From Novosphingobium sp. 17-62-19 (GTDB lineage: Bacteria; Pseudomonadota; Alphaproteobacteria; Sphingomonadales; Sphingomonadaceae), in the NCBI RefSeq assembly GCF_002256775.1, contig NZ_NCII01000027.1:1-33600 (forward strand): a DNA stretch of 33,600 nt. Reading direction: 5' to 3'. Shown here piece by piece: positions 2 through 20,578 of this stretch. Under the pieces are notes generated by a model that was not told the origin of the DNA, did no database searches, and saw only the letters and a program-made list of their open reading frames with translations. The stretch's first letter is position 1; every line of letters starts with the position of its first letter. Position numbers and translations under genes: made by a program.

Positions 2-160
2 GATTCTGACATTCGGTACCGTATAAGGTTAGGCGGCGTTCGAATGTCAGAATCTTTTCGGACCACTAGAAGCTTTTGATTCTAGTGGATTTTACGATTC
101 TGACATTTGCAGACCCATCCCAACCGCAAGGGGATGCAAATGTCAAAATCAATCCACTAG
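2..160. repeat. Array of three hairpins made of two repeated inverted-repeat units (REP/BIME-like)
   Basis: Positions 2-15 and 41-54 are a perfect 14-bp inverted repeat around a 25-nt loop. Positions 96-111 and 135-150 are a 16-bp inverted repeat of the same family (shared core GATTCTGACATT) with one mismatch, which becomes a G-U pair in a minus-strand transcript. Between them lies a smaller hairpin, 63-71 with 80-88 (CCACTAGAA and its complement, 8-nt loop). The heptamer CCACTAG occurs at 63-69 and again at 154-160, so the layout is unit plus CCACTAG, twice in tandem. The second CCACTAG contains the stop codon of the large cytochrome gene. The hairpins lie just 3' of the four-gene minus-strand operon, so they may end transcription or stabilise the 3' end. 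That role is inferred. Confidence 0.75.
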
Positions 161-3100
161 TTACCTCTGGCGAGCATTGGTGCTGCTTTCGCGCCAACCC
201 AATGGCTCATGTCCACCGTGTTGGTCACGCGGAACACCTCACCCTTCGCGTTGAGGAACAGCTCTTCCATCTCTGGCCGGGTGAATGGGCGTGAGCCGAG
301 GCGACCGAACACCGCCATCTGCCCCCCGGTCTCGTCGACGCCACGATCCCGGTCCAATCCCTTTGACAGCGCGAGGGCGGGTGTGGGTGTGCGTGCCCAG
401 GCGATCAATTCGGGCTTCGGCTCGGGCGAGAAGCCGTAGAAGTTCGGCTGGCTGCCCGGACTGGTCAGTTGCAGCACTTTCACCCCGTTCCGGCCATCGG
501 CAACATAGGCGAAAAGCGAGGCGTTGGTGGAGGCTACGATCACATCCTCGGCGTCGGTCAGCTTTCCGTCGGCAGTGTAGCTGGTGAAGATCGAAGGCCG
601 TGTGGGGGCGGTGATATCCACGATGACAAGGCCCTGCCCCTTGGCGGCGACATAGGCATATGTGCGCGCCAGATAGACGCGGCGCGCATCGGCCAGCGGG
701 ACGGTGGCTCCGACAACAGCCTTGGGGTCGGCCAGATTGGTCACGTCCATCAGTTCAAGGCCATTGGCGGTCGTCACCCACAAGTAGCGGAACTGCAACG
801 CGGTGCCGCGCGGATCGCTGAGCGGCACCACCGAAGTGACGCGCGGGTCGAGGCAGGTTTCGCCGCCCTTTTTTGCGCTGATTTCGCAGGGCTTCTCCGC
901 CGACCACGGCTTGGTCAGGTAGACGGTGACCAGCGCCTTGTCGGTGACGACATAGGCATAGTCGCCCGCCAGCGTGATGTGCCGTGCACCCGTGAGCACG
1001 CCGTCGGGGTTGAAGGTAAAGCTGCGGTCAAAGAAGTTGTTGCGGAACTCGCCATCGGCCAGCGTATCGACATTGACCGCGATCAGCCCTTCGACTGCAT
1101 CGGTAACGAAGGCATAGCTGTAGATCGGCGAGAACGGCTGCTCCTGATTGAGGTCGCGCAGTTCGGGCGTGTTGCGTGTGGGCGCGATGGCCTGATTGGT
1201 GGGCAGGGCCATGCAGGTGGCGTTCTTCGTCTTCACATGGGCATCGTGGCCGAGCGAGGAGAATGGCGCGGTGACGATGCGTTCGGAGAAGCCCTTGTCG
1301 CCAATCGCGGCGATATCATAGGCGCGGAAACCGCCCTTGCCTTCGGCGACGAACATGTATTCGCCGCGCATTTGCAGGCAGCGGACCGCGTCCTTGGTGC
1401 CTTCGACGACGTTGGCGAACTGTTCTTGGCCGGTGGTTTCGCCTGACAGTTTCTTGTCGAAGATCTTGCCGCGGGTCCAGTTCTTCAGCTCGCGGTCGTT
1501 CTTCTCGACGTGGAGTTTCCAGTAGTCGGGATAGGCGTAGCGATGGAGATAGGAGCCGATCACGGCTTGCGGTTCATCCCATTCGGTCACGCGGACCGCT
1601 TCGAAGCCGCCTTCAAGGCCGAACCACGCGTTCATTCCCACGAAGTTCACGTAATTGGTGCCGAGCAGCAGGAGCTGCGCCATGACCGCGTTGTTGTCCT
1701 CGTCTTGGGCGACGTGGCAGTCGGTGCACTGCTTGGTCTCGTTCTTGCGGACGGTGTGCGGGAAGTGCGGCGCGAAGGCTTGTGACGAGTAGCCGATCGA
1801 GGAAATCGGCGGCTGCTGCACGTAAATGCGTTCGCGGTTGATATTGGTCGAGGAGAGGATCAGCGCCGACGTTGAGCGGATCGGCGCTGTGATCGCCTTG
1901 CCACTGACAGGATTGCCCGCCGCATCGAACTGTACGGGATCGGAACCGGACGACTTGTTGCGCTGGTGCTTGCCCAGTTGGAACATGTCGTCACGCGCTA
2001 CCTGCGGGTTGTAGGTCGCGTAGTTGCGGGTGAAATCTTCCTCGTACTTGTGGGTGGCCGATTTCCAGTTCGCCTCGATCGGCAGGTGGCAGCCTGCGCA
2101 CGATGTGGTCCACGAAAGGTGGCAGGTGAAGCAGGCCATGTCGTCATCACGGTGGGCACGCGCTTCCTTGGGCACACCAGTGCCGAACTTGTAATCGCCA
2201 TCGTCCGAGGCGGACTTGGCCATCAGTTTGGCGCGCGCGGCCTTCGGATTGAAGATCGGCGCGCCTGCGCTGTCCATCTTGCCGGCGAAGCGGGCGTCGA
2301 CGGAGTCTTTCACGAGGCTCACGCGCCATGACAGGTTCGGATCGATGATCGAACGCTGGATCAGCACACGGCGGCCATCGGATTCGTTGAACCATTCAAA
2401 GCGGCGCTGGCCATCGGAGTTGCGCAGGAGCGAGAGGTTGTTGCCCTTTTCGGGCGCGGCAAGGTTCGATGTCAGCAGCGTGGGATAGGCGTCGGGCGTG
2501 CCGTGGCAATCCTTGCAGCCGATTTCGACGGCGTTGGCGACTTCGCCATAGATCAACCCGTTGCCGTGGCTGTCCTGCGCGAAGTGGCAGTCAGCGCATT
2601 GCATCCCGATCTGGGCATGGATGTCCATCATGTGGACGCTCTTGCCGGGATTGTCGGGGCCGACGTCGACAAACTTGCCCTCGGTACCTTGGCGGAACTT
2701 TTCGGGGTCGTTCGGGTCGATGATGTGCGCGGTGTCGGTGCCGTAAGTGCTCATGTCGCCATCATCGTCGAGCAGGTTGCCGCGACGGTCGCGCTTCAGG
2801 ATGGCGCGGAAGTTCCAGCCGTGGCCGTGATAGTCGGCGAACTGGGTGTCCTTGGCCTGACTGTTCAGGTCATAGACGTTGCGCAGGAATTCGACATCGC
2901 GCCACAGCCCGCGCGTGGATGCGCCTTCGGGGTTGCGGTCCAGCACTTCGCGCTGTTCATCGATGTTCGGGTAAAACTGCTTCTTGTAGGCCTTTTCGTA
3001 GTCGGCGTCCGACATTTCGGCAGGCTTGGGCGCGCGGTTTTCCGGCCCCGGCCACATGCTCGGCGCGTCAGACTCATAGTCCCACATCGTATAGCCGAGG

Positions 3101-4758
3101 TAGCTGTTCAGGAAGATGTTCGGCTGGTGCATGTGGCAGTTCATGCACTGAGCGGTGGGAATGGCGCGGGTGAAGGCGTGGACCAGCGGGTGGCCGCGTT
3201 CACGATCCTGCATGGCGACAGGGCCAGTGGGTTCGTGCGAGTCATCGCCGTGGCTGCTGCCATGAGCGGCCTTCTTCGCATGGCCCTTTTCATCAAGGCC
3301 TGCGGTGGCGTGGGCCGAGGCTTGGTCCATCTTGTCATGGTCCATTGTGCCATGCGGGGCCACACCCTTAGCCGGGGAATAGACAAGCTGTTCGGCCGCC
3401 GAAATCGCGCGGGCGCAATCGGCTGCCATGTCGTGCGAGGCTTCCGCGTCGGACTTGTCGCCGCCAACGTAGCTGCCTTGTCCGCCAAGCACAGTGCCGC
3501 GCACCTTGTCGTGCGCTTCATGGGCTGCAGCATCGTAAGTGCCATAGGCACCCTTGCGATGCTGGCCTTCGCGCAATGTGTTGATGGTGGGGTCCGCCGT
3601 GACCGTCTGCCCGTCACGTCCACACTTGCCGTAGTTCAGCGAGTGGCGCGGTTCGCGGTCGTTCGCGTAGATAACGTGGCATGATGCGCAGCCAGACGAA
3701 CGGTAGTCGCCCGGCTGGTCGTTGGTGCCCATCTGGAACAGGAACGGGTCGTTCAGGCGGGTCTTGTGTATGTTCAGGACCGGAATTGCGACGCGCAGGC
3801 CGGTTGCGGGGCCACGGTTGGACTGCTTCAGGTCGGGGCGGCCCGGCTCGTCCAGACGCTGGATCAGGCCGGTCGAATTGGGCAGTCCGATTTCAGGGAA
3901 CTGCGGGTTGATCGTGCGGCCGCCATCCTCGAACACGCGAAACACGTCGCCCGGCGGGATCTGGTGCCAGCGCGGCAGCGGATAGAGGATCGGCAGCGCA
4001 CCACGCGCTTTTTCCTGCGGCGTGACGGTGCCCCACATCGGCTTGCCATCCGGGCCGATTTCCTTCGAGCCCGACTTGAGCAGTGCCGGTTCACCTGCGC
4101 GGGTGAAGCTCTCGCCGAACATGTAGTTCTTGAAGGGAACGATGCCGTTGTTATAGGCCGCCCCGCCCCAGAGCATCGCACCGGTGGACATGATCGAGCG
4201 TTCGGACGCTTCGATGATCGACATGTGGCACGCCCCGCAGGAATCGCGCGCAATGCGATAGTCCGAAGGGTTTACAAAGCGAATGAAGTCAGGGCTTTCC
4301 TTGGCCAGCAGCGCGTAGGAGCGCTTCGGATTTGCCGAGGACGGCCAGCCCCAAGCCACCGGATACTTCGGCAGCACGTGGGCATCCTTCATCGCGCCCA
4401 CATATTCCATCGAATTGTGGTTCCACGAGCGGTCCGCCACAACCTTGGTATCGCCGCCATGGCAATCGACGCACGACAGCACCACCGCAGGGCTGGCGTG
4501 CATCGTGCGGTGATCGCTCTGCGTGTGGCAGCTGACGCAGCCCGCGTTCTGCTTGTCGACAAAGGCCCACTGCTCTTCCGCTGTTTCGCCCGGCTGGCCA
4601 CGGGGGGCAGCAGGCGCGCGCGTGTGCTTGACCTTCTGCGCCGGTTCCTCGCCCGCCGCGAACAGGGCGCTTGGCACCAGAAGCGCGGCAAACAGCGCTA
4701 TCAGCCATGTCAGCGGAAGCGAACGGATGCGGCGCGTAAGGGTCATGGGCTGGGTCAT
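157..4758 (-). CDS. Ten-haem c-type cytochrome with C-terminal LVIVD-repeat beta-propeller
   Basis: A 1533-residue exported protein. An N-terminal signal peptide (basic LTRRIR, hydrophobic stretch to about residue 36, ALFAA) directs it to the periplasm, where haem is attached. Ten CXXCH motifs lie near residues 74, 96, 174, 357, 538, 721, 748, 876, 887 and 1011. Between motifs 4 and 5, around residues 440-510, is a His- and Asp-rich insert that could bind metal. From about residue 1120 to the end the protein has repeated strands such as GLVIVDITAP and LELMDVTNLADP, typical of LVIVD/beta-propeller repeats. There is no lipobox. The ATG at 4758 overlaps the preceding stop by one base (TGATG); an in-frame TTG one codon upstream is less likely. 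It is last in a four-gene operon with a beta-barrel protein and a second multiheme cytochrome, so an electron-transfer role at or outside the outer membrane is likely. Substrate and exact location cannot be read from the sequence. Confidence 0.88.
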   Translation of the reverse strand: MTQPMTLTRRIRSLPLTWLIALFAALLVPSALFAAGEEPAQKVKHTRAPAAPRGQPGETAEEQWAFVDKQNAGCVSCHTQSDHRTMHASPAVVLSCVDCHGGDTKVVADRSWNHNSMEYVGAMKDAHVLPKYPVAWGWPSSANPKRSYALLAKESPDFIRFVNPSDYRIARDSCGACHMSIIEASERSIMSTGAMLWGGAAYNNGIVPFKNYMFGESFTRAGEPALLKSGSKEIGPDGKPMWGTVTPQEKARGALPILYPLPRWHQIPPGDVFRVFEDGGRTINPQFPEIGLPNSTGLIQRLDEPGRPDLKQSNRGPATGLRVAIPVLNIHKTRLNDPFLFQMGTNDQPGDYRSSGCASCHVIYANDREPRHSLNYGKCGRDGQTVTADPTINTLREGQHRKGAYGTYDAAAHEAHDKVRGTVLGGQGSYVGGDKSDAEASHDMAADCARAISAAEQLVYSPAKGVAPHGTMDHDKMDQASAHATAGLDEKGHAKKAAHGSSHGDDSHEPTGPVAMQDRERGHPLVHAFTRAIPTAQCMNCHMHQPNIFLNSYLGYTMWDYESDAPSMWPGPENRAPKPAEMSDADYEKAYKKQFYPNIDEQREVLDRNPEGASTRGLWRDVEFLRNVYDLNSQAKDTQFADYHGHGWNFRAILKRDRRGNLLDDDGDMSTYGTDTAHIIDPNDPEKFRQGTEGKFVDVGPDNPGKSVHMMDIHAQIGMQCADCHFAQDSHGNGLIYGEVANAVEIGCKDCHGTPDAYPTLLTSNLAAPEKGNNLSLLRNSDGQRRFEWFNESDGRRVLIQRSIIDPNLSWRVSLVKDSVDARFAGKMDSAGAPIFNPKAARAKLMAKSASDDGDYKFGTGVPKEARAHRDDDMACFTCHLSWTTSCAGCHLPIEANWKSATHKYEEDFTRNYATYNPQVARDDMFQLGKHQRNKSSGSDPVQFDAAGNPVSGKAITAPIRSTSALILSSTNINRERIYVQQPPISSIGYSSQAFAPHFPHTVRKNETKQCTDCHVAQDEDNNAVMAQLLLLGTNYVNFVGMNAWFGLEGGFEAVRVTEWDEPQAVIGSYLHRYAYPDYWKLHVEKNDRELKNWTRGKIFDKKLSGETTGQEQFANVVEGTKDAVRCLQMRGEYMFVAEGKGGFRAYDIAAIGDKGFSERIVTAPFSSLGHDAHVKTKNATCMALPTNQAIAPTRNTPELRDLNQEQPFSPIYSYAFVTDAVEGLIAVNVDTLADGEFRNNFFDRSFTFNPDGVLTGARHITLAGDYAYVVTDKALVTVYLTKPWSAEKPCEISAKKGGETCLDPRVTSVVPLSDPRGTALQFRYLWVTTANGLELMDVTNLADPKAVVGATVPLADARRVYLARTYAYVAAKGQGLVIVDITAPTRPSIFTSYTADGKLTDAEDVIVASTNASLFAYVADGRNGVKVLQLTSPGSQPNFYGFSPEPKPELIAWARTPTPALALSKGLDRDRGVDETGGQMAVFGRLGSRPFTRPEMEELFLNAKGEVFRVTNTVDMSHWVGAKAAPMLARGN

Positions 4759-6797
4759 CAAAAGGCCAGAGTCGCGTTGGCGAGGACGGAGTAGAAGCGG
4801 CTGGCCTTGCCCTGTTGCGCAAACAGATTGTCAAAGCCACGCCCCGGTTCAAGCACTGCGCCCGACAGGCGGAACACCAGATTCTGCGAGGCATTGGGCC
4901 GCCAGATGGCCGAGACCGAGGCGTCCCAACCGATATCCTTGGGGATCGAGCCTTCGTTGCGCAGCACCTGAAGAACTTTCGTGTTTTCGAACCACAAATG
5001 GTTGACGTTGGTCGAAACGCGCACGGTGGGCGTCAGATCGAAATCGGTGCCGACCCCGAGCAGCATCGTGCCGGGGTTGGTGAAGTTCGATTGGCCCTGC
5101 TCTTTCGATGAGCGCAGTGAATTGAGAATGCCGTTGCGGCCATTGACCGAGATCGCGCGGCCACCGCCTGCGAACGGGATCGTCTGGCGGATCCAGTAGC
5201 TGGTATCCGCGCCTGCAAACTGCGGATTTTCAAACACCGCGTCGAACCCGCCTTCGACCTTGTCGTAGGGGTCCTTGTCGCCGCTGGCATAGAGGCCGGA
5301 CAGGCGAATGCGCGTCCAGTCGATGTCATAGCTCAGTTCTGCCGCCGCCATGAAGGCGCGGATGCTGGCGGGGCCGCTGGTCAGGAAATTGTTGCTGTCG
5401 TGCCCCAGCGCGCCATAGAATTGCGCGGTCAGGTTGATGCGGCCAATGCGGCCATCGGCGGCATAGCCGAGATAGACTACGTCATAGTTGCGGCCGCGCA
5501 GATCGCCCAGCAGCGCTGGGCGTACCGGGAAGCCATTCTTGTCGACCGCCACTTCGCCACGTTCGCGGTTGATATTCCACGTGGCGGAAAGCTGGCTGGT
5601 CAGGCCGACAATTGGGAAGTCCTGTCGATAGACATTGGCCATCAGCAGGAAATCGTTGCGCGGAGCCTGCGTGATGTCATTCAGGCCGGAGTTGGTGTCT
5701 TTTTCAAGACGCCAGAACGCCGCCAGATTGAACTGGAAGCGGTTGTTGTCGCGGTTGCCGAAGAAGCGGATGCCCAACTGGTTATCGTTGAACAGGAAAC
5801 CGCGAAAGTCCGACTGCATGGGCTGGATGCCTGCACGGACCGAGAAGAAGTCATACCGCTTGGAATCGTACTGGCCGAGGTGATAATCGACGAAGGCTTC
5901 CTGCAGGCCCACGAAACCATCGGTGCGGCGCGTGCCCTTGGACGGCTCGACGAACAGCACACGGCGCTCTGGCACCTGCACATGATTGATATTGCCCGCA
6001 ATTGCGATGCGATATTCAATCGTCGGCGGCTTGAACGCGGTCATGCCCTTCAGAAGCGACACACTGGCGATGAAGGTCTGCGCTAGCACAAGGCTGTTGC
6101 TGCGTCCGAACACGTCGATCTGGTTGGGATCGCTGGTGGTCTGATTGCCGACCGGAATCGGGAAGCTGCGCGGTTCGACAATCGTGTCGGACACTGCGCC
6201 TGCGATCAGGAACCAGTCATCCCCCTTCAGAAAACCGGGGCGCTTGCCGCGCGCCAGCGGACGGTCACCTTTGAGCAGGCTGTGGTGGAACGGGTCGAGC
6301 GAGGAGTGGCAGACATGCTCCAGCCGGGGGAACAATGTATAGAGCGAACGATCAATCTTGCCCGAAAGCTTGTCTTTCTGCGGGCACAGCGAAGAGACGA
6401 TACGCCAGCGATCGGGTACGCCGACTTGCAGGCCCAGATTGCTCATTGGGCCCTCGCCATCGTACTTGTCGTAGAAGGCTTCGGGCGGCGGGGCGTTGAC
6501 CGCGCCGGGATTGTCCTGCTCCACCTTGTCGGGAAGCTGCTTGTTGTAACCGGGGCGGCGGCGGCCATCGATCAGCGCTTCGTCGGCCTCGGTCTCTCCG
6601 CCGGGGAGTGCCGTCGTGTTGGGATCGACCTGTTGTGATGCACCGTCTGCTGCGGGTGTAGCCGCCTGCTGCGGTTCCGCCGCGCCGGGTGTTGCCGCAG
6701 CACTTGCGGAAAGCACCTGAAACGGCATCATCGGCATGGGCATCGGCTGGCTGATACCGAAAGCCGGTGCAATCAGGGCGATCACCTGCTGCATCAT
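4758..6797 (-). CDS. Outer-membrane beta-barrel (porin-like) protein of the cytochrome operon
   Basis: A 679-residue protein. The N-terminus is weakly hydrophobic, followed by an Ala/Pro/Gln-rich linker to about residue 75. Next comes a globular stretch with LCPQKDK and HVCHSSLDPFHH, a Cys/His-rich patch that is not a CXXCH haem site. From about residue 200 onward there are alternating hydrophobic/polar strands with many aromatic residues, and the chain ends in ATLAF, the terminal Phe typical of BAM-assembled barrels. The start ATG overlaps the upstream stop (ATGA) and has a GAGG ribosome-binding site five bases upstream. I do not recognise a named family. By analogy with MtrB/PioB-type barrels it could sheathe a multiheme cytochrome, because it is encoded between two exported haem proteins. 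A general porin or a substrate-specific channel is the alternative. The signal peptide is atypical (MPMPMM segment), so the cleavage site is unclear. Confidence 0.8.
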   Translation of the reverse strand: MMQQVIALIAPAFGISQPMPMPMMPFQVLSASAAATPGAAEPQQAATPAADGASQQVDPNTTALPGGETEADEALIDGRRRPGYNKQLPDKVEQDNPGAVNAPPPEAFYDKYDGEGPMSNLGLQVGVPDRWRIVSSLCPQKDKLSGKIDRSLYTLFPRLEHVCHSSLDPFHHSLLKGDRPLARGKRPGFLKGDDWFLIAGAVSDTIVEPRSFPIPVGNQTTSDPNQIDVFGRSNSLVLAQTFIASVSLLKGMTAFKPPTIEYRIAIAGNINHVQVPERRVLFVEPSKGTRRTDGFVGLQEAFVDYHLGQYDSKRYDFFSVRAGIQPMQSDFRGFLFNDNQLGIRFFGNRDNNRFQFNLAAFWRLEKDTNSGLNDITQAPRNDFLLMANVYRQDFPIVGLTSQLSATWNINRERGEVAVDKNGFPVRPALLGDLRGRNYDVVYLGYAADGRIGRINLTAQFYGALGHDSNNFLTSGPASIRAFMAAAELSYDIDWTRIRLSGLYASGDKDPYDKVEGGFDAVFENPQFAGADTSYWIRQTIPFAGGGRAISVNGRNGILNSLRSSKEQGQSNFTNPGTMLLGVGTDFDLTPTVRVSTNVNHLWFENTKVLQVLRNEGSIPKDIGWDASVSAIWRPNASQNLVFRLSGAVLEPGRGFDNLFAQQGKASRFYSVLANATLAF

Positions 6798-8770
6798 TTG
6801 CCCTCACAGACGTTCTGTTCGCTCGTATCGAGGAACGGGGCGAAGGGGCAGTTCACATAGCGCAGGCGCACGCCGCTACCAATTGCAACAACGATGGTAT
6901 CGGCGCGCATGTCCTTGGGGGCATTACCAATCCCGCCGACTTTGGCTCCCGCATTGTGCAGGCCGAGGAACGAGATCATGTCGTCCTGATCGATGCCGTC
7001 ACCCGAAACGCCAATCGCGCCGACCAGCTTGTTGCCGCGATAGATCGGCACGGAACCGGGGAAAATCTGGATTCCGTTGGCAAGGCGCTTCTTGCCGGTC
7101 GGCGTATCCGGCACGGACGAGCAGGTCTGCGGGGTGTCAGCACCTGCACCCTGCACAAAGCCTGCGTGCTGCACCACATTCCCGGCAACGAGCGCAATTT
7201 GCAAGCCAGTGGCGAAGGGGCTGAAATCGTCAATCGGGCGTGACAAGGGACCGGGAGGACGGCCCAGTTCGCCATCGGGGAAGTACGGCCGCGAAAGGTT
7301 GCCGCCAGAACGGTCGGCAAAGGCTTTGCCACCGGTAAGCGCGGTCTGGTCGCCCAGGAAATCGCGCACGCGCTGGACGAACGCATCGGCTCCGGGTGTG
7401 GCGAGCATTTGCTGTGCGGCCAGCGGGTTCGAGAAGAATGCCGCAGTGCGTGCTTTTTGCAGCGAAACGTCGGTGCCGAAGATCGGCGCATCGGGGCTGC
7501 GGACCTGCCCCAGCACTTCGCCGAAGGTATCGACCACGGTGACCGTCACTTGTGCGCGGCTGTCGAGCGGGCGGCGGATTTGCGCGCGGGCGCGGGTCAT
7601 CACGGTGAAGGCCTCTTCCAGCACAGCGCGGGATTCAGCAGCGGTCAGCGCCTGCCCCACAACCGCTCCGTCAGTGCCGGGCTTCACCGGGTAGCGGGGA
7701 TTGCCTGCACCGTCAGTGAGCAGATAGGCGTCAGCCAGCGAGAACTCCGACCCACTTACGCGGCGTATGCCGCTGCGTTCGGTGCCATAAGGCGTCCCGG
7801 CGATAGCCGCAGTTCCATCGTAGTAGCCACGCACCGGAATCAGCGTGCCGCGCACGTTGTTAATTGCGGCAAAGCTGGTCTGCAGCGCCGAAAGTTTTGC
7901 CGGTTGCGCATCGGCAAAGCGCAGCGTGGTGCCGTCGGCGGTGATGCGGTCCCCGCGAATGTCGGCGGCGGGCGCAAAGCCCTGAATGCCAGCTAGTGCG
8001 ATGTATTCCTCATCGTCCTCATCGATGTCGGTGACGTTTGGATCGTAGCCATAATCGCCATCGGCCATCACTCCGATACCGCCGACAACCACACCGTTCT
8101 TGTAAAGCGGCAGGCCACCGGGATCGGCAGCAAGGCCGAGCGGGGAACGCTTCGGGCCGATGAAAGCGCCTGCTCCGGCGTTTCCGGTGACGAACCGGGT
8201 GTTGAGGTCCGAACAGGGCAACTGGCTGAACTGGACGCCAAACAGAGGGCCGGATTCAAGGCCCGGTGTATTGGGCGCGGGCGGGAAATGTTCCTGCACG
8301 ATCATGCTGGCCGTGCGGGTGGTGAAGGCGTTGCCGCTGGAGGATAGGTAAGCGCCGGTTATCGCCTTGGAAATCGCGCCCATCGTTGCCTCGACTTCGA
8401 GACCCTGCGCATCAATGCCGGGGTTGGCGATCCGGCCCGTCGCAGTGCGGCGACTGGTGACCATGCGCGTTGGTGCGCCATTCATGCGGAACACGGCCAG
8501 CACATTGCCCACGCGATCCACGACGCTGATGATTGCAGGCTTGTTGCGCGCCTGCGCCTCGCCCACGGCCTGCGCGATGATCTGCTGGACTTCGTTTACG
8601 CTCAACGATTCCTGCGCGGGATCGGCAAAGAAGCGCGAGGATGCGGTGGGAGTAGGCGTTGGCGTGAATGTATCGCCGGAGCCGGAATCACCCCCACCAC
8701 ATCCGGCAAGCACCAGCGACAGCGACAAGGCGAAGGCAGTGGTCTGACGAAGAGCCAGCGGCAGGTGCAT
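6794..8770 (-). CDS. Lipoprotein with two GlcG/HbpS-type (haem-binding-like) domains
   Basis: A 658-residue protein with a clear lipoprotein signal peptide: hydrophobic residues 11-23 and lipobox LAGC with Cys24, then a Gly/Ser/Thr/Pro-rich tether. Two copies of the GlcG/HbpS (DUF336) fold can be seen. The first spans roughly 55-260, from SVNEVQQIIAQAV and ISVVDRVGNVLAVFRM to NGVVVGGIGVMADG. The second spans roughly 373-610, from LTAAESRAVLEEAF and VTVVDTFGEVLGQV to RGNKLVGAIGVSGDG. HbpS members bind haem, while GlcG proteins are often of unknown function. It lies between a c554-like cytochrome and a beta-barrel gene with 1-nt and 4-nt overlaps, so co-translation is likely. A role in haem handling or as an envelope-anchored partner of the cytochromes is an inference. 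Residue 25 onward does not show an obvious inner-membrane retention Asp (+2 is Gly), which is compatible with the outer membrane. Confidence 0.85.
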   Translation of the reverse strand: MHLPLALRQTTAFALSLSLVLAGCGGGDSGSGDTFTPTPTPTASSRFFADPAQESLSVNEVQQIIAQAVGEAQARNKPAIISVVDRVGNVLAVFRMNGAPTRMVTSRRTATGRIANPGIDAQGLEVEATMGAISKAITGAYLSSSGNAFTTRTASMIVQEHFPPAPNTPGLESGPLFGVQFSQLPCSDLNTRFVTGNAGAGAFIGPKRSPLGLAADPGGLPLYKNGVVVGGIGVMADGDYGYDPNVTDIDEDDEEYIALAGIQGFAPAADIRGDRITADGTTLRFADAQPAKLSALQTSFAAINNVRGTLIPVRGYYDGTAAIAGTPYGTERSGIRRVSGSEFSLADAYLLTDGAGNPRYPVKPGTDGAVVGQALTAAESRAVLEEAFTVMTRARAQIRRPLDSRAQVTVTVVDTFGEVLGQVRSPDAPIFGTDVSLQKARTAAFFSNPLAAQQMLATPGADAFVQRVRDFLGDQTALTGGKAFADRSGGNLSRPYFPDGELGRPPGPLSRPIDDFSPFATGLQIALVAGNVVQHAGFVQGAGADTPQTCSSVPDTPTGKKRLANGIQIFPGSVPIYRGNKLVGAIGVSGDGIDQDDMISFLGLHNAGAKVGGIGNAPKDMRADTIVVAIGSGVRLRYVNCPFAPFLDTSEQNVCEGK

Positions 8771-10203
8771 CAGCGCAGGCTCCGAATTGAACGCACTGCC
8801 CCGCCCAGAGCGCGGCGGAAGGCGATCGGCTGGAAGCCGTTGGGATCGCGCACGGCGGCATAGGCCTGATTAATCTGGACGCGAAGGTTGGCTGCCGACG
8901 CGGTAGAGACCATGCCCTGATTGACCATACCACCCAGCAGCGTGTCCACCGCCATCACTGATTGCACCGCGCCCTCATAGTCGGTGAAGCGGGCCCCAAT
9001 GGCATCGCTGGCAATCGAATCCATGATGGCAAAGGTCTGGTCGCGGGTGAAACTGGTCGCTGCAAAGCGACTGGACAGGGCATCTGCCGACTGGCGAAGC
9101 GCCTGCGCTGCGGCTACGGTTTCAGCCCTGCCCGCCAGCATCGCGCGATGGAAGGCCTTGGCCCGCGCATCAAACGTAGCTGCTGCATCGGGCGCGACGA
9201 CCTTTGCCGCAGCCAGCAGCATGATCATGTTCTCGTCGTTATAAGGCGGCGTGCCGAGATCGAGCGGACGGCCCGGATTGGGCACCGCCGTCACATTAGC
9301 CCCCGCTTCGCCATCGTAGATACGGCGGTGACAGGAATGGCAATCGTAGAAGGTGAATTCGGGGAAGATGCCATCGACCGCGCGGCTCGGCTGGCTGAAC
9401 AGTTCAAGGCTACGCTTGACCGCTTCTGCCTGCCCCACCGCCCACATGCGCATGGCGTTGGTCTTGCCACCCTTGCGCTGGGCGTAGTCGGCATCCTCGT
9501 CATGGTGCGATTGCAGCGTGGTGAACAGGTCAAGTTCGAACGAGATGCGCGGATGGCCTGCTGCCATGATGCGGTGTGCGATGAACTGGCCGCGTGCATC
9601 ACCCGAGAAGTGGCAATCGAGGCAGACTTGCGCCTTGACCGCCGGGTTGACCAGATCGGTCATGCCTTGCGCCACGTTGCGCCCGTGGCTTGCGCCGACG
9701 GTATAGTGGGTGGAAAGCCAGCCGCCGGACGTTCCATGGCAAGCCTCGCAATCAACGCCATCGGCGACGCGTGTTGCGCCGGGAGTAGCATGGCAGCCCG
9801 CGCAATCGCGCTGGGCGCCAGCGGCATCCAGACCAAGGCGGCGCAAAATTGCCTGTCCGCGTGGTTCCTGCACCACGCGCCAGGCGCGGCTGTGTGCGCC
9901 AGTGGGCGAGGATTCCTCCTGCCAGCGCAGCAGCTCGTCCTGACGCACCATCGCTCCATCGGCGATACTGCGGCCATGGCAAGTAGACCCCGCGCACGAG
10001 GCAACACCCATGTGCCCGCGCAACGATTGGCCCGCAGAAACGGAGGAGGGTTCGGCCCGGACAGAATCGGGGCCGAGCAGCGAGGACGCACCCAGTGCTG
10101 CCCCAGCCATCGCCAGACACGCCGCAATAGCCAGCGCACCCGAACGAGATGTCGCCCGGAGCACAGCCATGCGCTGCCCTATTCCCTTGAAAATGCCCTG
10201 CAT
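8770..10203 (-). CDS. c554-like multiheme cytochrome c
   Basis: A 477-residue exported protein and the first gene of the four-gene operon. A signal peptide covers about residues 1-50, with a hydrophobic core near 22-44 and a likely cleavage after VRA. Haem-attachment motifs are CAGCH (134-138), CEACH (152-156), CLDCH (194-198) and CHSCH (288-292), plus an unusual CX4CH (CAGSTCH, 70-76) that could hold a fifth haem. Nearby His residues, such as HYTVGASHGRN and AAGHPRISFE, are candidate distal ligands and resemble the cytochrome c554 family. The C-terminal 180 residues are helical and lack Cys. The ATG has a GAGGGG ribosome-binding site about six bases upstream. The 182-bp upstream gap should hold the operon promoter; the best pattern there is a weak TTGAAC-N17-CTAGGC (10299-10327). 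Its likely job is periplasmic electron transfer to the downstream barrel and ten-haem protein. Confidence 0.86.
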   Translation of the reverse strand: MQGIFKGIGQRMAVLRATSRSGALAIAACLAMAGAALGASSLLGPDSVRAEPSSVSAGQSLRGHMGVASCAGSTCHGRSIADGAMVRQDELLRWQEESSPTGAHSRAWRVVQEPRGQAILRRLGLDAAGAQRDCAGCHATPGATRVADGVDCEACHGTSGGWLSTHYTVGASHGRNVAQGMTDLVNPAVKAQVCLDCHFSGDARGQFIAHRIMAAGHPRISFELDLFTTLQSHHDEDADYAQRKGGKTNAMRMWAVGQAEAVKRSLELFSQPSRAVDGIFPEFTFYDCHSCHRRIYDGEAGANVTAVPNPGRPLDLGTPPYNDENMIMLLAAAKVVAPDAAATFDARAKAFHRAMLAGRAETVAAAQALRQSADALSSRFAATSFTRDQTFAIMDSIASDAIGARFTDYEGAVQSVMAVDTLLGGMVNQGMVSTASAANLRVQINQAYAAVRDPNGFQPIAFRRALGGAVRSIRSLR

Positions 10204-10385: not shown

Positions 10386-11822
10386 TCACGTCCTGCGAAT
10401 GACCAGATTGCGGATCTCGGACATGTCCTCCATCGCAAACCGGATGCCCTCGCGCCCAAGGCCCGAATCCTTGACGCCCCCATAGGGCATGTTGTCGACG
10501 CGGTAGGATGACACGTCGTTGACGACGATTCCGCCCACATCAAGCTTGTCCCAGGCACCCATCACCCTCTGGATGTCGGACGTAAAAAGGCCAGCCTGAA
10601 GGCCGAACTTGCTGTCGTTGACCTCGTCGAGCGCGGCAGCCCAATCGGTGTACTTCGAAAGGATGACGACCGGACCGAACGCTTCTTCGGTGTAGACGTC
10701 CATGTCGCGGCTGCAGCCTTCGAGCAGCGTGGCTTCGAGCATGTTGCCCTCGCACCTGCCGCCTGCCAGCAAGGTTGCCCCGCCTGCAACCGCCGCGTCG
10801 ATCCAGCCTTTGAGCCGTTGTGCTTCCTTGGCCGAGATCATCGGGCCGATGAAGGTCTCGCGATTCTTGGGATCGCCAGACTTCAGCGCCTTGACCTTGG
10901 CAGCAAGCATATCGCGGAACTGGTCATAGATGTCGGCGTGGATGATCACGCGCTGCACATGGATGCATGACTGGCCCGACTGGTAGTACCCGCCGAAGAT
11001 GATCCGGGCGAGCGCGTGGTCCAGATCAGCGTCCTTGTCGACCACTACGGCCGCATTGCCGCCAAGTTCCAGCACGACCTTCTTCTTGCCCGCCTTGCCC
11101 TTCAATTCCCAGCCCACGCCGGGCGAGCCGGTGAACGAGAGCAATTTCAAGCGTTCGTCCGTTGTGAACAAGTCTGCGCCATCGCGGCTGGCAGGCAGGA
11201 TCGAAAACGCGCCTTCGGGCAGGACATCGCACTCGGCCAGCACTTCGCCCATGATGATCGCGCCCAGCGGGGTGAGGCTGGCGGGCTTCATCACGAAGGG
11301 GCAGCCCATGGCGATGGCGGGCGCGATCTTGTGCGCGGCAAGGTTCAGCGGGAAGTTGAAGGGCGAGATGAAACTGCACGGCCCGATCGGCACGCGCTTC
11401 CACATGCCCATATAGCCTTTGGCGCGCGGCGAAATGTCGAGCGGCTGGACCTCGCCATAGTTGCGGGTCGCTTCCTCTGCCGCGATGCGGAAGGTGTCGA
11501 TCAAACGGCCTACTTCGCCTTCGGAATCGGCAATCGGCTTTCCGGCTTCTACACACAGGGCATAGGCCAGCTCGTCCTTGCGCTCGGCAAAACGCTTCAC
11601 GCAATGGTCCAGCACGTCGCGCTTTTCGTAGCTTGCCAGCGCCGCCATCGGCTCTGCCGCGCGCACAGCCCCGGCGATGGCCTCATCGATCACATCAGGC
11701 GTAGCAAGCGCGGTGCGGAAGGCGACTTCGCCGGTGAACTTGTCGGTCACCGCAAGATCGGTGTTGGGCTGCACCGCCTTGTTGTTGAGGTAGAGCGGGT
11801 AGACGTCTTTCAACTGGGTCAC
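10386..11822 (-). CDS. NAD(P)-dependent aldehyde dehydrogenase
   Basis: A member of the aldehyde dehydrogenase superfamily, about 478 residues, which oxidises an aldehyde to the acid in the cytoplasm. Family signatures are present in order: FISPFNFPLN in the cofactor domain, FTGSPGVGWELK, the general-base motif VLELGGN (near 252), the nucleophile in GQSCIHV (near 285), and EEAFGPVVIL. The chain is nearest in feel to the lactaldehyde/glyceraldehyde-3-phosphate type. The substrate is not decidable from sequence. The GTG at 11822 is preferred because a GGAG lies nine bases upstream; another GTG at 11837 is possible, but its upstream bases are the repeat at 11838-11922. The gene follows the acetolactate synthase-like gene in the same direction with the inverted repeat between them, so read-through may be reduced. 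Confidence 0.88.
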   Translation of the reverse strand: MTQLKDVYPLYLNNKAVQPNTDLAVTDKFTGEVAFRTALATPDVIDEAIAGAVRAAEPMAALASYEKRDVLDHCVKRFAERKDELAYALCVEAGKPIADSEGEVGRLIDTFRIAAEEATRNYGEVQPLDISPRAKGYMGMWKRVPIGPCSFISPFNFPLNLAAHKIAPAIAMGCPFVMKPASLTPLGAIIMGEVLAECDVLPEGAFSILPASRDGADLFTTDERLKLLSFTGSPGVGWELKGKAGKKKVVLELGGNAAVVVDKDADLDHALARIIFGGYYQSGQSCIHVQRVIIHADIYDQFRDMLAAKVKALKSGDPKNRETFIGPMISAKEAQRLKGWIDAAVAGGATLLAGGRCEGNMLEATLLEGCSRDMDVYTEEAFGPVVILSKYTDWAAALDEVNDSKFGLQAGLFTSDIQRVMGAWDKLDVGGIVVNDVSSYRVDNMPYGGVKDSGLGREGIRFAMEDMSEIRNLVIRRT

Positions 11823-11837
11823 GAAATCAAACTCCAC

Positions 11838-11943: not shown

Positions 11944-13599
11944 CTAAAGCGCCTTCGACAGTTCCTTGATGTCCTTGTTCAGAATCTGGTCGTTCTCCGA
12001 ATAGTCCACCGGACATTCGATCAGATGGACGCCCGGCGTATCGCGGCAGTGGGCGAGCAGTTCCTTCAAATGAGCAGCGCTCTCCGCCCGGTAACCGTTC
12101 GCGCCATAGCTTTGCGCATACATCACAAAATCGGGGTTGTTGTAGGTCAGTCCAAAGTCCGCAAAGCCCATGTTCGCCTGCTTCCAGCGGATCATGCCAT
12201 AAGAATTGTCGTTGAGAATCAGGACCGTGAGGTTGAGACCCAGCCGGACGGCAGTCTCCATTTCCTGGCTGTTCATCATGAACCCACCATCGCCGCAAAT
12301 CGCCATGACCTTGCGATCGGGATAGAGCATCGCGCTCATCATCGCAGACGGCAACCCCGCCCCCATTGTGGCCAGCGCATTGTCGAGCAGCACGGTGTTG
12401 GGCTGATAGGCGGTATAGCCGCGCGCGAACCAGATCTTGTACACGCCGTTATCGAGGCAGATGATCCCGTCCTCAGGCATACAATCGCGCACCTGCTGCA
12501 CCAGATGCGGCGGGAACACCGGGAAGCGCGCATCAGCCGCCAAGGGTGCGGTGTGTGCCACTTCAGCGGCGCGATAGGACAGCATCCGGTCAAAGTTCCA
12601 TGCCGGATTGGGCGTGATCGCTTCCTTCATCTGCCAGATGGCATTGGCGATATCGCCGATCACCTCGATACTGGGGAAGTAGACCGGATCGACCTCTGCC
12701 GTCTTGGTCGAAACGTGGATCACGGGCGTTCCGCCATTCCGCATGAAGAACGGCGGCTTTTCGATCACGTCATGGCCGACGTTCACGATCAGGTCGGCGT
12801 CTTCCACCGCGCGATGGACAAAGTCCCCGGATGAAAGCGCGGCGCAGCCCAGAAACTTCGGATGGCGTTCATCGATCACGCCCTTGCCGAGCTGCGTGGT
12901 CAGAAACGGAATGCCGCTCTTTTCCACGAATTCGGCCAGCATCTTGCCGGTCATCTTCCGGTTTGCACCCGCACCGATCACCAGAACCGGCGCTTTGGCG
13001 TTCTGCAACGCGTGAACGGCCTGCATAACAGACTTTGCATCGGCATTGGGACGGCGAACAAGGCTGCGCTTCAGCGGCCGGGAATCGGTATGTTCGTCAG
13101 CAATGTCTTCCGGCAGTTCGATATGCGTCGCGCCGGGCTTTTCCTCTTCGGCCAAACGATAGGCTTCCCGCACCCGGCTGGGGATGTTGTCCGAAGACTG
13201 CATCTGGTGGGTAAACTTGGTGATCGGCCCCATCATCGACACGACATCGAGAATCTGGAACCGGCCCTGCTTCGATTTCTTGATCGGCTTTTGCCCGGTA
13301 ATCATCAGCATCGGCATACCGCCCAGAGTGGCATAGGCAGCAGCGGTCACGAAATTGGTCGCTCCCGGCCCTAACGTAGCGATGCACACGCCGGTCTTGC
13401 CAGTATGCCGGCCATATGTCGCAGCCATGAAGCCCGCGCCCTGCTCATGCCGGGTCAGGACCAGCTTGATCTTGGTGGAGCGTGACAGCGAATCGAGGAA
13501 ATCGAGGTTCTCTTCGCCCGGAACGCCAAAGATGTATTCGCAGCCCTCTTCCTCAAGGCATTCAATGAATACGTCGGATGCTTTCTTGCCGTCGGCCAT
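11944..13599 (-). CDS. Acetolactate synthase-like thiamine diphosphate-dependent enzyme
   Basis: A 551-residue enzyme of the acetohydroxyacid synthase / pyruvate oxidase family. Features are the N-terminal ThDP domain with the catalytic glutamate in LTRHEQGAGFMA (near residue 52), GPGATNFVTAAAYA, a central nucleotide-binding-like domain, and the C-terminal ThDP/Mg motif beginning GDGGFMMNS and ending LNDNSYG (near 437-462). The ending PVDYSEN resembles catabolic AlsS-type acetolactate synthases, which condense two pyruvates. There is no ilvN regulatory-subunit gene beside it, which argues for a catabolic or non-branched-chain role. The ATG at 13599 (MADGKK) has a GGAG nine bases upstream and is preferred over the ATGs at 13614 and 13617. 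An aldehyde dehydrogenase follows on the same strand. Its substrate could be another 2-oxo acid. Confidence 0.85.
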   Translation of the reverse strand: MADGKKASDVFIECLEEEGCEYIFGVPGEENLDFLDSLSRSTKIKLVLTRHEQGAGFMAATYGRHTGKTGVCIATLGPGATNFVTAAAYATLGGMPMLMITGQKPIKKSKQGRFQILDVVSMMGPITKFTHQMQSSDNIPSRVREAYRLAEEEKPGATHIELPEDIADEHTDSRPLKRSLVRRPNADAKSVMQAVHALQNAKAPVLVIGAGANRKMTGKMLAEFVEKSGIPFLTTQLGKGVIDERHPKFLGCAALSSGDFVHRAVEDADLIVNVGHDVIEKPPFFMRNGGTPVIHVSTKTAEVDPVYFPSIEVIGDIANAIWQMKEAITPNPAWNFDRMLSYRAAEVAHTAPLAADARFPVFPPHLVQQVRDCMPEDGIICLDNGVYKIWFARGYTAYQPNTVLLDNALATMGAGLPSAMMSAMLYPDRKVMAICGDGGFMMNSQEMETAVRLGLNLTVLILNDNSYGMIRWKQANMGFADFGLTYNNPDFVMYAQSYGANGYRAESAAHLKELLAHCRDTPGVHLIECPVDYSENDQILNKDIKELSKAL

Positions 13600-13764
13600 T
13601 TTCGGTCGCTCCATCAATCAGGAACACGCGGCCACGCGGCGCTCCCCTCCCCAATTCGGCTGCGACCGTTCAGGGCGAAAATCCGGTGCGTGTCGTTATG
13701 GCCCCCGCACCTGCCCCTTGGTGCATGGGCTAACAAACCCAACCGCGCGAGTCACGCGCCGGTT

Positions 13765-16865: not shown

Positions 16866-17612
16866 TCATTCGGCTGGACTGTCGGCCAGAACCTCGGCCA
16901 GCCATTCGAACTGCGCCTTGCACCCATTGTCCAGCAACAGCGTGCCAAGCGCGGCAGCATCGGCGGGCACCGCTTCCGGCTCCAGCGTGACGATGCGGAA
17001 CTCTGCCGCCTTGTCGGGCGCGGTTTCGTCATAGATGCGGTAGGTGCGGCCTTCCTGCGGGGCGAGCATGGTCTTGGGCCAAGCGATGCCAGCCGTTTTG
17101 GGCGGCCACTGCATTCGCACCATCTCGCCGCCCTCGCTCTCGGTCAGCCAGGTGAAGCTGCGCGCGTCAGCCTTGCCACGCCACAGATAAAGGTCACTGC
17201 CACGCGGCACGCAGACATTGCCGTCCTGATTGGTATCGGCGATCCAGATGCTGACGGGCAGCACCACCTCGGGGTCACCAGCCACCGCACCACGCACCGC
17301 TCCTGCGCGCACCGAAGCCGGATTGCTGAGTGACCGGGCCAGCAGCGCAGCAGCTCCGCGATCACGATTCACAGCAGAGTCCATCACGAAAGTCCCCGCG
17401 CCTTTCAGAACGCGCGTCCCCGCCTTGTCGAGCACGGTGACGACGTCCCCGGCCTTCAACACCACGCTGGCGTTGGCCGGAAGCCGCTTGCCTTTCGGAT
17501 AGTTCACCGCTGTCGGCCCGGTAGAGCGGACGACCACCGCCTGCGCCATCGTCTCCGATGACACGGCAGCAGCCATCAACGCGCCCGCTGCTATCAGGAC
17601 CGTGCGCCGCAT
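16866..17612 (-). CDS. Secreted protein of unknown function, paralogue of its upstream neighbour
   Basis: A 248-residue protein with a signal peptide (MRRTVLIAAGALMAAAVSS, cleavage near MAQA). The mature N-terminus VVVRSTGPTAVNYPKGKRLP and the following VVLKAGDVVTVLDKAGTRVLKGAGTF are nearly shared with the adjacent gene at 17615-18382, so the two arose by duplication. The middle part differs. Two Cys, in NVCVPRG and in NGCKAQ near the C-terminus, are matched in position in the paralogue (TYCVAD and KGCTAQ), suggesting a conserved disulphide. The GDVVTVLDKAG strand pattern recalls FecR-like periplasmic sensor segments, but I cannot assign a family. It lies two bases downstream of its paralogue in an operon with a CHASE2 cyclase. 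Confidence 0.75.
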   Translation of the reverse strand: MRRTVLIAAGALMAAAVSSETMAQAVVVRSTGPTAVNYPKGKRLPANASVVLKAGDVVTVLDKAGTRVLKGAGTFVMDSAVNRDRGAAALLARSLSNPASVRAGAVRGAVAGDPEVVLPVSIWIADTNQDGNVCVPRGSDLYLWRGKADARSFTWLTESEGGEMVRMQWPPKTAGIAWPKTMLAPQEGRTYRIYDETAPDKAAEFRIVTLEPEAVPADAAALGTLLLDNGCKAQFEWLAEVLADSPAE

Positions 17613-17614
17613 GT

Positions 17615-18382
17615 TCAGCCCCCCGCCTGCGTGGCGCTAGCAAGGTTGGCCAGCAGATCAAGCTGCGCGGTGCAGCCCTTTTCCGCCATCGTGCCTGCAA
17701 TCTCCACCTCGTCCGTCGGCACCGTGGCGAGCACCATCGTGCGGATCTTCACCGGCCCGCCCACCGGACTGCTGAATGTGTAGGTCTGCCCATCGACCAC
17801 CGGCACGGTCGCCGATGGCCAGACTTTCAGCGGATTGCCCGCGCGCCAGCTCACATCGGCGGTGCTGCCATCCTGCGAAAGCAGCGTGCCGGTGCCGTCC
17901 AGCGTCTTGTCTGGCCGCCACAGCACCAGCGCGGCAGGATCGGCCACGCAATAGGTGCCGCCCTTGCTCACATCGATGTGCCACACATTCTCTGGCGCAG
18001 TGGGAGCCGCGACCACAGGAGCCGCCGTGGCCCCGCGCACAGCCCCGGTCCGCGTCCGTGCCCCGCCGCCGCGCGCCATCATCGAGGCCAGCGCCGTCGC
18101 GCCGCCGCCATCGCGGTTGACCGCACCGTTCAGCGTGAAAGTGCCCGGCCCCGCCAGAACGCGGGTGCCCGCCTTGTCCAGCACCGTCACCTGATCGCCG
18201 CCCTTCAGCACGACCGTGGCGTGCGCAGGCAACTTCTTGCCCTGCGGATAGGCCCCCGCCGAAGGCCCGGTAGAGCGCACAACGACCGATTGCGCCATCG
18301 CGCTGCCTGCGATTGCCATTCCGGCCAGCGCCGCCATTCCGGCAACACCTTTGCGGATCAGCTTGCGATCAACCCAGCCCAT
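17615..18382 (-). CDS. Secreted protein of unknown function with FecR-like repeat strands
   Basis: A 255-residue exported protein with a hydrophobic signal (VAGMAALAGMAIAGSAMAQ, cleavage after AMA). The mature start SVVVRSTGPSAGAYPQGKKL and VVLKGGDQVTVLDKAGTRVLAGPGTF match the next gene closely. The central region is Ala/Gly/Arg-rich (ARGGGARTRTGAVRG), then comes a segment with TYCVAD and KGCTAQ Cys positions conserved in the paralogue. Its start overlaps the end of the cyclase gene by 14 bases, so it is probably translated with it. A periplasmic partner of the CHASE2 sensor is a reasonable guess, not shown by the sequence. Confidence 0.75.
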   Translation of the reverse strand: MGWVDRKLIRKGVAGMAALAGMAIAGSAMAQSVVVRSTGPSAGAYPQGKKLPAHATVVLKGGDQVTVLDKAGTRVLAGPGTFTLNGAVNRDGGGATALASMMARGGGARTRTGAVRGATAAPVVAAPTAPENVWHIDVSKGGTYCVADPAALVLWRPDKTLDGTGTLLSQDGSTADVSWRAGNPLKVWPSATVPVVDGQTYTFSSPVGGPVKIRTMVLATVPTDEVEIAGTMAEKGCTAQLDLLANLASATQAGG

Positions 18383-20414: not shown

Positions 20415-20578
20415 GTTTCGCCCCCCATTCGCATATCTCAAAGGCCCGCCGCCAAAGCGCGAGCCTTACCCCCGAAGATTTTGCGAACCCGTGCGAGCGC
20501 CTTTGCGCCTCGCCCCAAAGCATAGGCGGATTGTTGCAGCCCTGCCAATGCGGAACTGCACGGCAGTGGAGCGAAAGA

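Follow-up and report, generated by a model that had tools for sequence, protein, structure and literature searches.

A widespread sphingomonad operon of two cytochromes, a beta-barrel and a lipoprotein, and its apparent kinship with the PCC4 porin-cytochrome cluster

Extracellular electron transfer has been studied mostly in anaerobes and iron bacteria. The system closest to the one considered here, PCC4, is a putative porin-cytochrome cluster that was proposed in 2017 from the genomes of iron oxidisers (PMC5566968). According to excerpts of that report, it comprises a porin, an Fe-S protein, further redox proteins and three multihaem proteins, which have 4, 5 and 10 haems; a redox gene lies upstream of the tetrahaem gene. 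The membrane protein of the cluster is described as carrying two WX3HX13H motifs and an SGXXG motif and, in Subgroup II, a PF13247 Fe-S protein is encoded upstream of this inner-membrane protein (PMC5566968, excerpts). Here we analyse 33,600 nucleotides of Novosphingobium sp. 17-62-19 (contig NZ_NCII01000027.1, positions 1 to 33,600; the whole stretch is called the window below). At its left end, four genes designated A to D form an operon on the minus strand (157-10203). The operon is real and widespread. With a probability of about 0.55, we read it as the periplasmic and outer-membrane portion of an electron system that spans the envelope and is linked to NAD(P)H, a variant of the PCC4 type. 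No paper treating this operon was recognised among the matches listed in the open-licence literature.

All four genes are read from the minus strand. Gene A (8770..10203) encodes an exported c554-like cytochrome with CXXCH motifs at residues 134, 152, 194 and 288 and a single CX4CH motif at residue 70. It matches the Pfam family Cytochrome_C554 (PF13435, E 1.3e-6) and its profile finds cytochrome c554 in the PDB (1bvb, E 2.5e-8). The product of B (6794..8770) is a lipoprotein with HbpS/GlcG-like domains (PF03928, E 7e-25, in three stretches), and that of C (4758..6797) an outer-membrane beta-barrel of 679 residues ending in Phe. Gene D (157..4761) encodes an exported 1534-residue c-type cytochrome that begins with a signal segment, contains ten CXXCH motifs separated by long stretches without haem motifs, and terminates in a propeller of LVIVD repeats (Pfam match with E 1.1e-13), a choice-of-anchor domain being matched as well. 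Genes A and B overlap by 1 nt (TGATG at 8770) and B and C by 4 nt (ATGA at 6794-6797); the overlap between C and D amounts to 4 nt from the TTG start of D or to 1 nt from an alternative ATG at 4758, one codon inside. A preliminary description of the window had announced an operon of four genes with overlaps of 1-4 nt, comprising a c554-like cytochrome with four CXXCH and one CX4CH, a lipoprotein with HbpS domains, a barrel terminating in Phe and an exported ten-haem protein with a propeller; all these readings held.

Barrel C was used to search a sample of 398 genomes of the phylum. It is present in 12 of them, the source genome included: 8 of the 19 genomes of the same family, 2 from other families of the class and 2 from other classes. 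When about 20 kb around C were read in the 11 other carriers, A, B and D were found beside it in ten (in L023, A lies downstream of D), with the ten CXXCH motifs of D and the four plus one motifs of A retained throughout. In the remaining locus, L024, B is present, A and D were not seen, and the contig ends after C. A search of the same sample with D gave 18 matches, of which the 11 full-length ones entered the count; the other 7 were short (E 4e-14 to 5e-4) and were left out. Genome G154 lacks D on a contig that stops just past the barrel. A scan of named species, in which at least 527 of at least 595 stretches encode a relative of the barrel, yielded 80 named loci. In 71 of the 80, nearly all from sphingomonads, A, B, C and D follow each other in this order on one strand, so that the co-occurrence of barrel and cytochromes that the preliminary description called for is borne out. 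Eight of the nine loci without a complete A-D set start at a contig edge; L068 does not. The genera represented include Novosphingobium, Sphingopyxis, Sphingobium and Erythrobacter, all cultivable aerobes.

Among the open reading frames (ORFs) of the 80 loci that were taken as complete, the four CXXCH motifs of A are conserved in 67 of 69 and its CX4CH motif in 66 of 69, D keeps ten CXXCH motifs in 74 of 77, and the last residue of the barrel is F or Y in 77 of 78; these features are not there by chance. A lipobox precedes B in 66 of 70 scored relatives. D shares 54-73% identity with its counterparts in 10 other genomes, and the nearest named relative of the barrel among the matches listed, which may leave out records of the source genome itself, is that of Novosphingobium sp. 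ERN07 (92%). D is also matched by 15 plasmid records, 13 of them over at least 80% of its length (12 from Sphingobium, 1 from Sphingopyxis). Two such plasmids, both large and typed as conjugative, are those of Sphingobium herbicidovorans (L142), which bears the operon together with the inner-membrane module described below, and of Sphingopyxis indica (L143), which bears the operon alone within the stretch read.

A second conserved block was first seen in the flanks of distant carriers. In the source genome this inner-membrane module (G000:C114:9551-15802) consists of a flavoprotein with a Pyr_redox domain, two cyclic nucleotide monophosphate (cNMP) domains and a 4Fe-4S part (C114:13226-15802), a membrane cytochrome b with two WX3HX13H motifs (C114:12314-13222), a ten-haem cytochrome anchored through a segment that follows a forkhead-associated (FHA)-like start (C114:10423-12306) and, as is often the case, a CpdA-like phosphodiesterase of the metallophosphoesterase kind (C114:9551-10405). 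The flavin adenine dinucleotide (FAD) domain of the flavoprotein is of the thioredoxin-reductase/YpdA type, and a preference for NADPH over NADH is suggested by its motifs, judged by eye, and by a YpdA match below cut-off. CXXC was not found in the flavin part. The Fe-S part contains 16 cysteines, enough for four 4Fe-4S clusters, and matches PF13247 (E 3.5e-10). Two WX3HX13H motifs are present in 30 of 32 homologues of the cytochrome b, a stricter count that includes SGXXG giving 25 of 33 rows. The FHA protein has a single hydrophobic segment (residues 142-160) and ten CXXCH motifs from residue 203 onwards; the FHA domain of a relative passes the Pfam cut-off with 23.0 bits. The phosphodiesterase matches the CpdA and SpdA models below their cut-offs.

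The module travels with the barrel. Flavoprotein, cytochrome b and FHA protein occur together in all 12 barrel carriers of the 398-genome sample, and the FHA ten-haem protein is found in 12 of 12 carriers, in 3 of the 386 other genomes and in 0 of 8 non-carriers of the same family (the search gave 24 matches; the count includes 15 and omits 9 weak ones, E 6e-6 to 8e-4). The corresponding Fisher p of 1.6e-20, uncorrected for kinship, exaggerates the association, since genomes that share ancestry are no independent observations. The phosphodiesterase lies near the module in 9 of the 12 carriers. Among the 80 named loci, 33 have the module within the flank of the operon, 32 times convergent with A-D. 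The preliminary description had taken the operon for an electron conduit and had not seen an inner-membrane half; its operon half stands, and with an inner-membrane electron module linked to it, a route across the whole envelope becomes plausible.

The module is also what connects the system to PCC4. The cytochrome b of the source genome contains the two WX3HX13H motifs plus SGMFG, and the PF13247-bearing flavoprotein is encoded directly upstream of it, as in Subgroup II. The haem numbers differ from the 4, 5 and 10 of PCC4, with 4+1 in A and 10 each in the FHA protein and D; neither the operon nor the immediate surroundings of the module contain a separate 5-haem gene. A cytochrome b profile matched 34 genomes, 15 strongly (E 7e-93 or better) and 19 weakly, and 16 of the 19 weak neighbourhoods were read (G105, G117 and G291 were left out) and labelled PCC4-like or PCC3-like by their gene content. 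Four loci (L148, L149, L150 and L160) were matched by all four profiles used, with E values of 2e-15 to 3e-19 for A, 2e-42 to 2e-52 for the flavoprotein (on Fe-S ORFs), 4e-13 to 7e-19 for the membrane protein and 6e-7 to 7e-18 for the FHA protein. L163 and L151 have a partial PCC4-like gene content. In all, five loci that are PCC4-like, wholly or in part, encode a c554-like protein matched by the A profile, and hhalign aligned A with the c554-like protein of L149 at a probability of 97.7%. The flavoprotein match concerns the cNMP/Fe-S part, as Pyr_redox was not found in the two loci scanned. The FHA-protein profile also matches ORFs with 21 to 24 haem motifs, and its lack of specificity makes the ten-haem homology the weakest link.

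Each of the three PCC4-like loci scanned for it (L149, L150 and L160) encodes a separate NAD-binding/2Fe-2S reductase. Thus, NAD(P)H input appears to recur by way of a different domain, and since two different NAD(P)H-type flavoenzymes fill the same slot, the cytosolic end of the system is best read as NAD(P)H. The profiles of B, C and D matched none of the ORFs of the 16 neighbourhoods at 1e-3. With hhalign, the barrel profile against one PCC4-like porin (L149, a single sequence) gave E 0.54, and D against the 5-haem protein of L160 gave a probability of 72.4%, over the haem motifs. Judged by these comparisons, the module and A are homologous to PCC4 parts, the ten-haem protein less surely so, and the proposal of a stand-alone new conduit type has to be given up, A, the cNMP/4Fe-4S protein and the cytochrome b all having homologues in PCC4-like loci. 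What the two appear to share is a c554-like protein, a cNMP/4Fe-4S PF13247 protein, a membrane protein with doubled WX3HX13H, a ten-haem cytochrome, an NAD(P)H-type redox enzyme and a barrel. In contrast to PCC4, the sphingomonad system adds a ten-haem LVIVD protein and an HbpS lipoprotein, bears FHA on its membrane ten-haem protein, lacks the 5-haem protein, and has a flavin domain of another family fused to the Fe-S protein whereas the 2Fe-2S reductase of PCC4-like loci is separate; no relationship of its barrel to the one PCC4-like porin compared was detected. By homology, then, we classify the system as a sphingomonad variant of the PCC4 type, in which barrel, HbpS lipoprotein and propeller cytochrome are new parts with no detected PCC4 counterpart.

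Other described systems are more distant. MtrCAB, PioAB and MtoAB resemble the operon in combining a periplasmic cytochrome, a barrel and a ten-haem protein, but here no ten-haem protein is lipid-anchored and the barrel model is smaller. Against the DmsE family (TIGR03508, cut-off 192.2 bits), A scores 15.3 and the FHA protein 26.5 bits, and D is not listed. As the preliminary description had maintained, neither cytochrome looks MtrA- or MtrC-like, no such family cut-off being reached; membership in MtrCAB was rejected on these scores and the missing lipobox of D. PCC3 shares a membrane protein with two HX13H motifs. Its cytochromes have medians of 34 and 21 haem sites and most of its porins are large, according to excerpts of PMC5566968, whereas the present system has at most 10 haems per protein and 18 strands; membership was rejected on the haem counts. 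In PCC3-like loci with 24-haem ORFs we observed relatives of the flavoprotein (L154:3977-5326, E 1.6e-64; L156:8054-9349, E 9.1e-70), so PCC3, too, may include an enzyme of the NAD(P)H type. Barrel C compared with the L156 ORF adjoining the 24-haem genes gave E 0.78. The Uet complex of Tenderiales also clusters multihaem proteins with a barrel and propeller-type proteins, in its case NHL propellers; excerpts of PMC10734462 list an 11-haem, three 3-haem and one 4-haem protein plus a peptidylprolyl isomerase. The haem counts here (4+1, 10 and 10) differ, and membership was rejected on them; LVIVD rather than NHL repeats are fused to the cytochrome. Finally, the extHIJKLMNOPQS genes of Geobacter include a porin, multihaem proteins and a b-type cytochrome in a different gene set. 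ExtM is the best NCBIfam match of D; at 58.8 bits against a cut-off of 800, and confined to two short haem stretches, it was not accepted as a homologue. The ExtM search had no yardstick, since its 14 control genomes gave 0 matches.

AlphaFold2 modelled barrel C with 18 strands of at least 10 residues, at a predicted local distance difference test score (pLDDT) of 57.9, and structure comparison indicated an AlgE/OprD-like, porin-sized barrel. The MtrB barrel has 26 strands. No MtrB entry is among the best 50 structural matches listed, a lower-ranked one being possible. A cytochrome plug of the MtrA kind has become doubtful because 18 strands, as modelled, make a narrower barrel than MtrB. No Pfam family was matched by C and no PDB entry by its profile; its sole phmmer match in the PDB (4ici, E 0.013) was taken as chance. 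phmmer searches of the PDB with D and A, and a search with the D profile, gave no matches either. Residues ~518-573 of the barrel, a long segment that AlphaFold2 did not place, are among the most conserved stretches of the family; they are a candidate plug or docking site.

From the combined gene content we infer the following route. NADPH (or NADH) would reduce the FAD domain and then the 4Fe-4S clusters of the cytosolic flavoprotein, from which electrons would pass to two haems b of the membrane protein, on to the periplasmic ten-haem domain of the FHA-anchored cytochrome, to the c554-like A and to the ten-haem D. At the outer membrane, D would work together with the barrel and the lipoprotein and deliver them to an acceptor on the cell surface or beyond it. 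Flow across the envelope is probably outward. NADPH oxidases likewise carry electrons from the cytosol to the other side of the membrane through haems b. Because such flow through haems b would conserve no energy, tight gating and the role of a redox valve fit better than respiration. The gate would be a cyclic nucleotide: CHASE2 cyclases would make it, the CpdA-like phosphodiesterase would degrade it and the two cNMP domains would sense it; phosphothreonine, via FHA, could perhaps be a further gate.

Genes upstream of the operon may bear on this scheme. A CHASE2 class III adenylate/guanylate cyclase is encoded at 18369..20441 (minus strand; PF05226 E 4.1e-28, PF00211 E 1.6e-14) and is a candidate signal maker. 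Homologues occur in 17 of 100 stretches (some of these overlap or form pairs from one genome) and are near full length in 10, nine of which fall within the 80 named loci, upstream of A. Beside the cyclase lie two similar adjacent genes (16866..18382, minus strand) that match no Pfam family at E 0.001; tblastn found their homologues in 11 of the 100 stretches, and in nine named loci they stand between cyclase and A. Genes for the synthesis, removal and sensing of a cyclic nucleotide therefore accompany the system, and their products may act on it. A CcmH-like motif near the cluster was dropped as an argument: it is found in 2 of the 100 stretches, and L021 has a variant missed by the search expression. 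Closer to A, on the minus strand, are genes of possibly linked metabolism, for an aldehyde dehydrogenase (10386..11837; PF00171, E 2.5e-131) and a thiamine-diphosphate enzyme of the acetolactate-synthase family (11944..13617; NF006187, 883.8 bits, cut-off 509). The latter is named acetolactate synthase in NCBIfam; by analogy with cyanobacterial work it might be a 2-oxoglutarate decarboxylase. Upstream neighbours were counted at 65 of the 80 loci, 15 without A or without 5.5 kb upstream being omitted: an NADP-type glutamate dehydrogenase (GDH) was found in 18, the thiamine-diphosphate enzyme with the aldehyde dehydrogenase in 25, and one or the other, all enzymes with the capacity to generate NADPH, in 40. 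These are not independent events because the carriers are related. In L022 the genes A and B are separated by an NADP-type GDH gene (13337-14659) with the same orientation, and PutA is encoded near the operon in L016 and L143.

A more specific version of the scheme can be built on these neighbours. In it, the system would be a cyclic-nucleotide-gated NADPH valve, fed by proline and glutamate breakdown through PutA, GDH, the thiamine-diphosphate enzyme and aldehyde dehydrogenase, that exports electrons past both membranes without the quinone pool and through a new exit of AlgE-like barrel, propeller and HbpS parts; a sensor cyclase would write the opening signal, the phosphodiesterase erase it and the cNMP-flavoprotein read it. 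We hold this version as tentative and, in its full detail, rather unlikely.

Several observations weigh against an NAD(P)H-linked outward route, or against parts of it. The operon and the module of the source genome are on different contigs, and its own GDH gene is on a third. Neither GDH nor the thiamine-diphosphate/aldehyde dehydrogenase pair is near in 25 of the 65 loci, and GDH can also consume NADPH. The FHA match of the protein in the source genome scores 20.0 of the 20.7 bits required by Pfam, just below cut-off, and the phosphodiesterase was not found near the module in 3 of the 12 carriers. Three genomes, G034, G153 and G001 (L139, L140 and L141), hold the module, and neither barrel nor full-length D was found in them, so the module can serve something else; in two of the three, flavoprotein and cytochrome b are fused in one ORF of ~1120 residues. 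Conversely L068, a metagenome-assembled genome, contains C and D but neither A nor B, although ~10 kb of upstream sequence are covered. The barrel, being porin-sized in the model, may be merely a channel. A lipobox is present in 0 of 36 scored relatives of D, so that D may or may not sit at the surface. The AlphaFold2 model of D (54 sequences) reached a pLDDT of 46.0, which made it unusable and precluded a fold search. Lastly, the flow proposed for PCC4 is inward, with the quinone pool receiving electrons from an external donor (PMC5566968, excerpts).

Some of these points suit a periplasmic multihaem reductase or oxidase with its own porin, whose electrons stay in the cell. The barrel would admit a soluble substrate, B bind substrate or haem, D catalyse, and A with the module supply electrons from NAD(P)H. 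The AlgE/OprD-like size of the barrel and the large D, with its long non-haem stretches and no lipobox, are in keeping with it, as is the Geobacter porin ExtI, encoded beside multihaem genes and tied in excerpts of PMC5877670 to selenite and tellurite reduction; ExtM, far under cut-off as it is, is the nearest NCBIfam family of D. However, no enzyme family was matched by D in the Pfam and NCBIfam scans. Its LVIVD and choice-of-anchor domains are typical of surface proteins, and a conduit function has been proposed for the homologous PCC4 clusters. We regard this explanation as having roughly one chance in four. An inward conduit, in which an external donor such as Fe(II) or Mn(II) is oxidised and its electrons enter via D, A and the module, would agree with the direction proposed for PCC4, but its cytosolic end is an NAD(P)H-type flavoprotein, reduction of NAD(P)+ with such donors is uphill, and NADPH-linked carbon enzymes lie near many loci; it is improbable. 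Less probable still is haem or corrinoid handling (B binding the ligand, the barrel moving it, the cytochromes reducing it): the HbpS-like domains, profile matches of B to a putative haem-binding protein and to a protein named ATP:cob(I)alamin adenosyltransferase, and, if it is linked, cobT within the window speak for it, but the four-gene operon has no importer gene, and the ligand of B is left open because the same fold includes EfgA (6bws, E 4.9e-10).

The operon and its module thus amount to a conduit-like system in many sphingomonads, also on plasmids. If the NAD(P)H-linked outward route is true, cytosolic NAD(P)H, not quinol, would be tied to the cell surface under cyclic-nucleotide control. 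Ten-haem 'forkhead-associated' proteins without a role are described for 27 of 87 iron-oxidiser genomes in excerpts of PMC10734462; were they of the same family as the FHA ten-haem protein, and were the model correct, a possible role for them would follow. The PCC4 class, so far proposed only from genomes, would then also gain tractable hosts.

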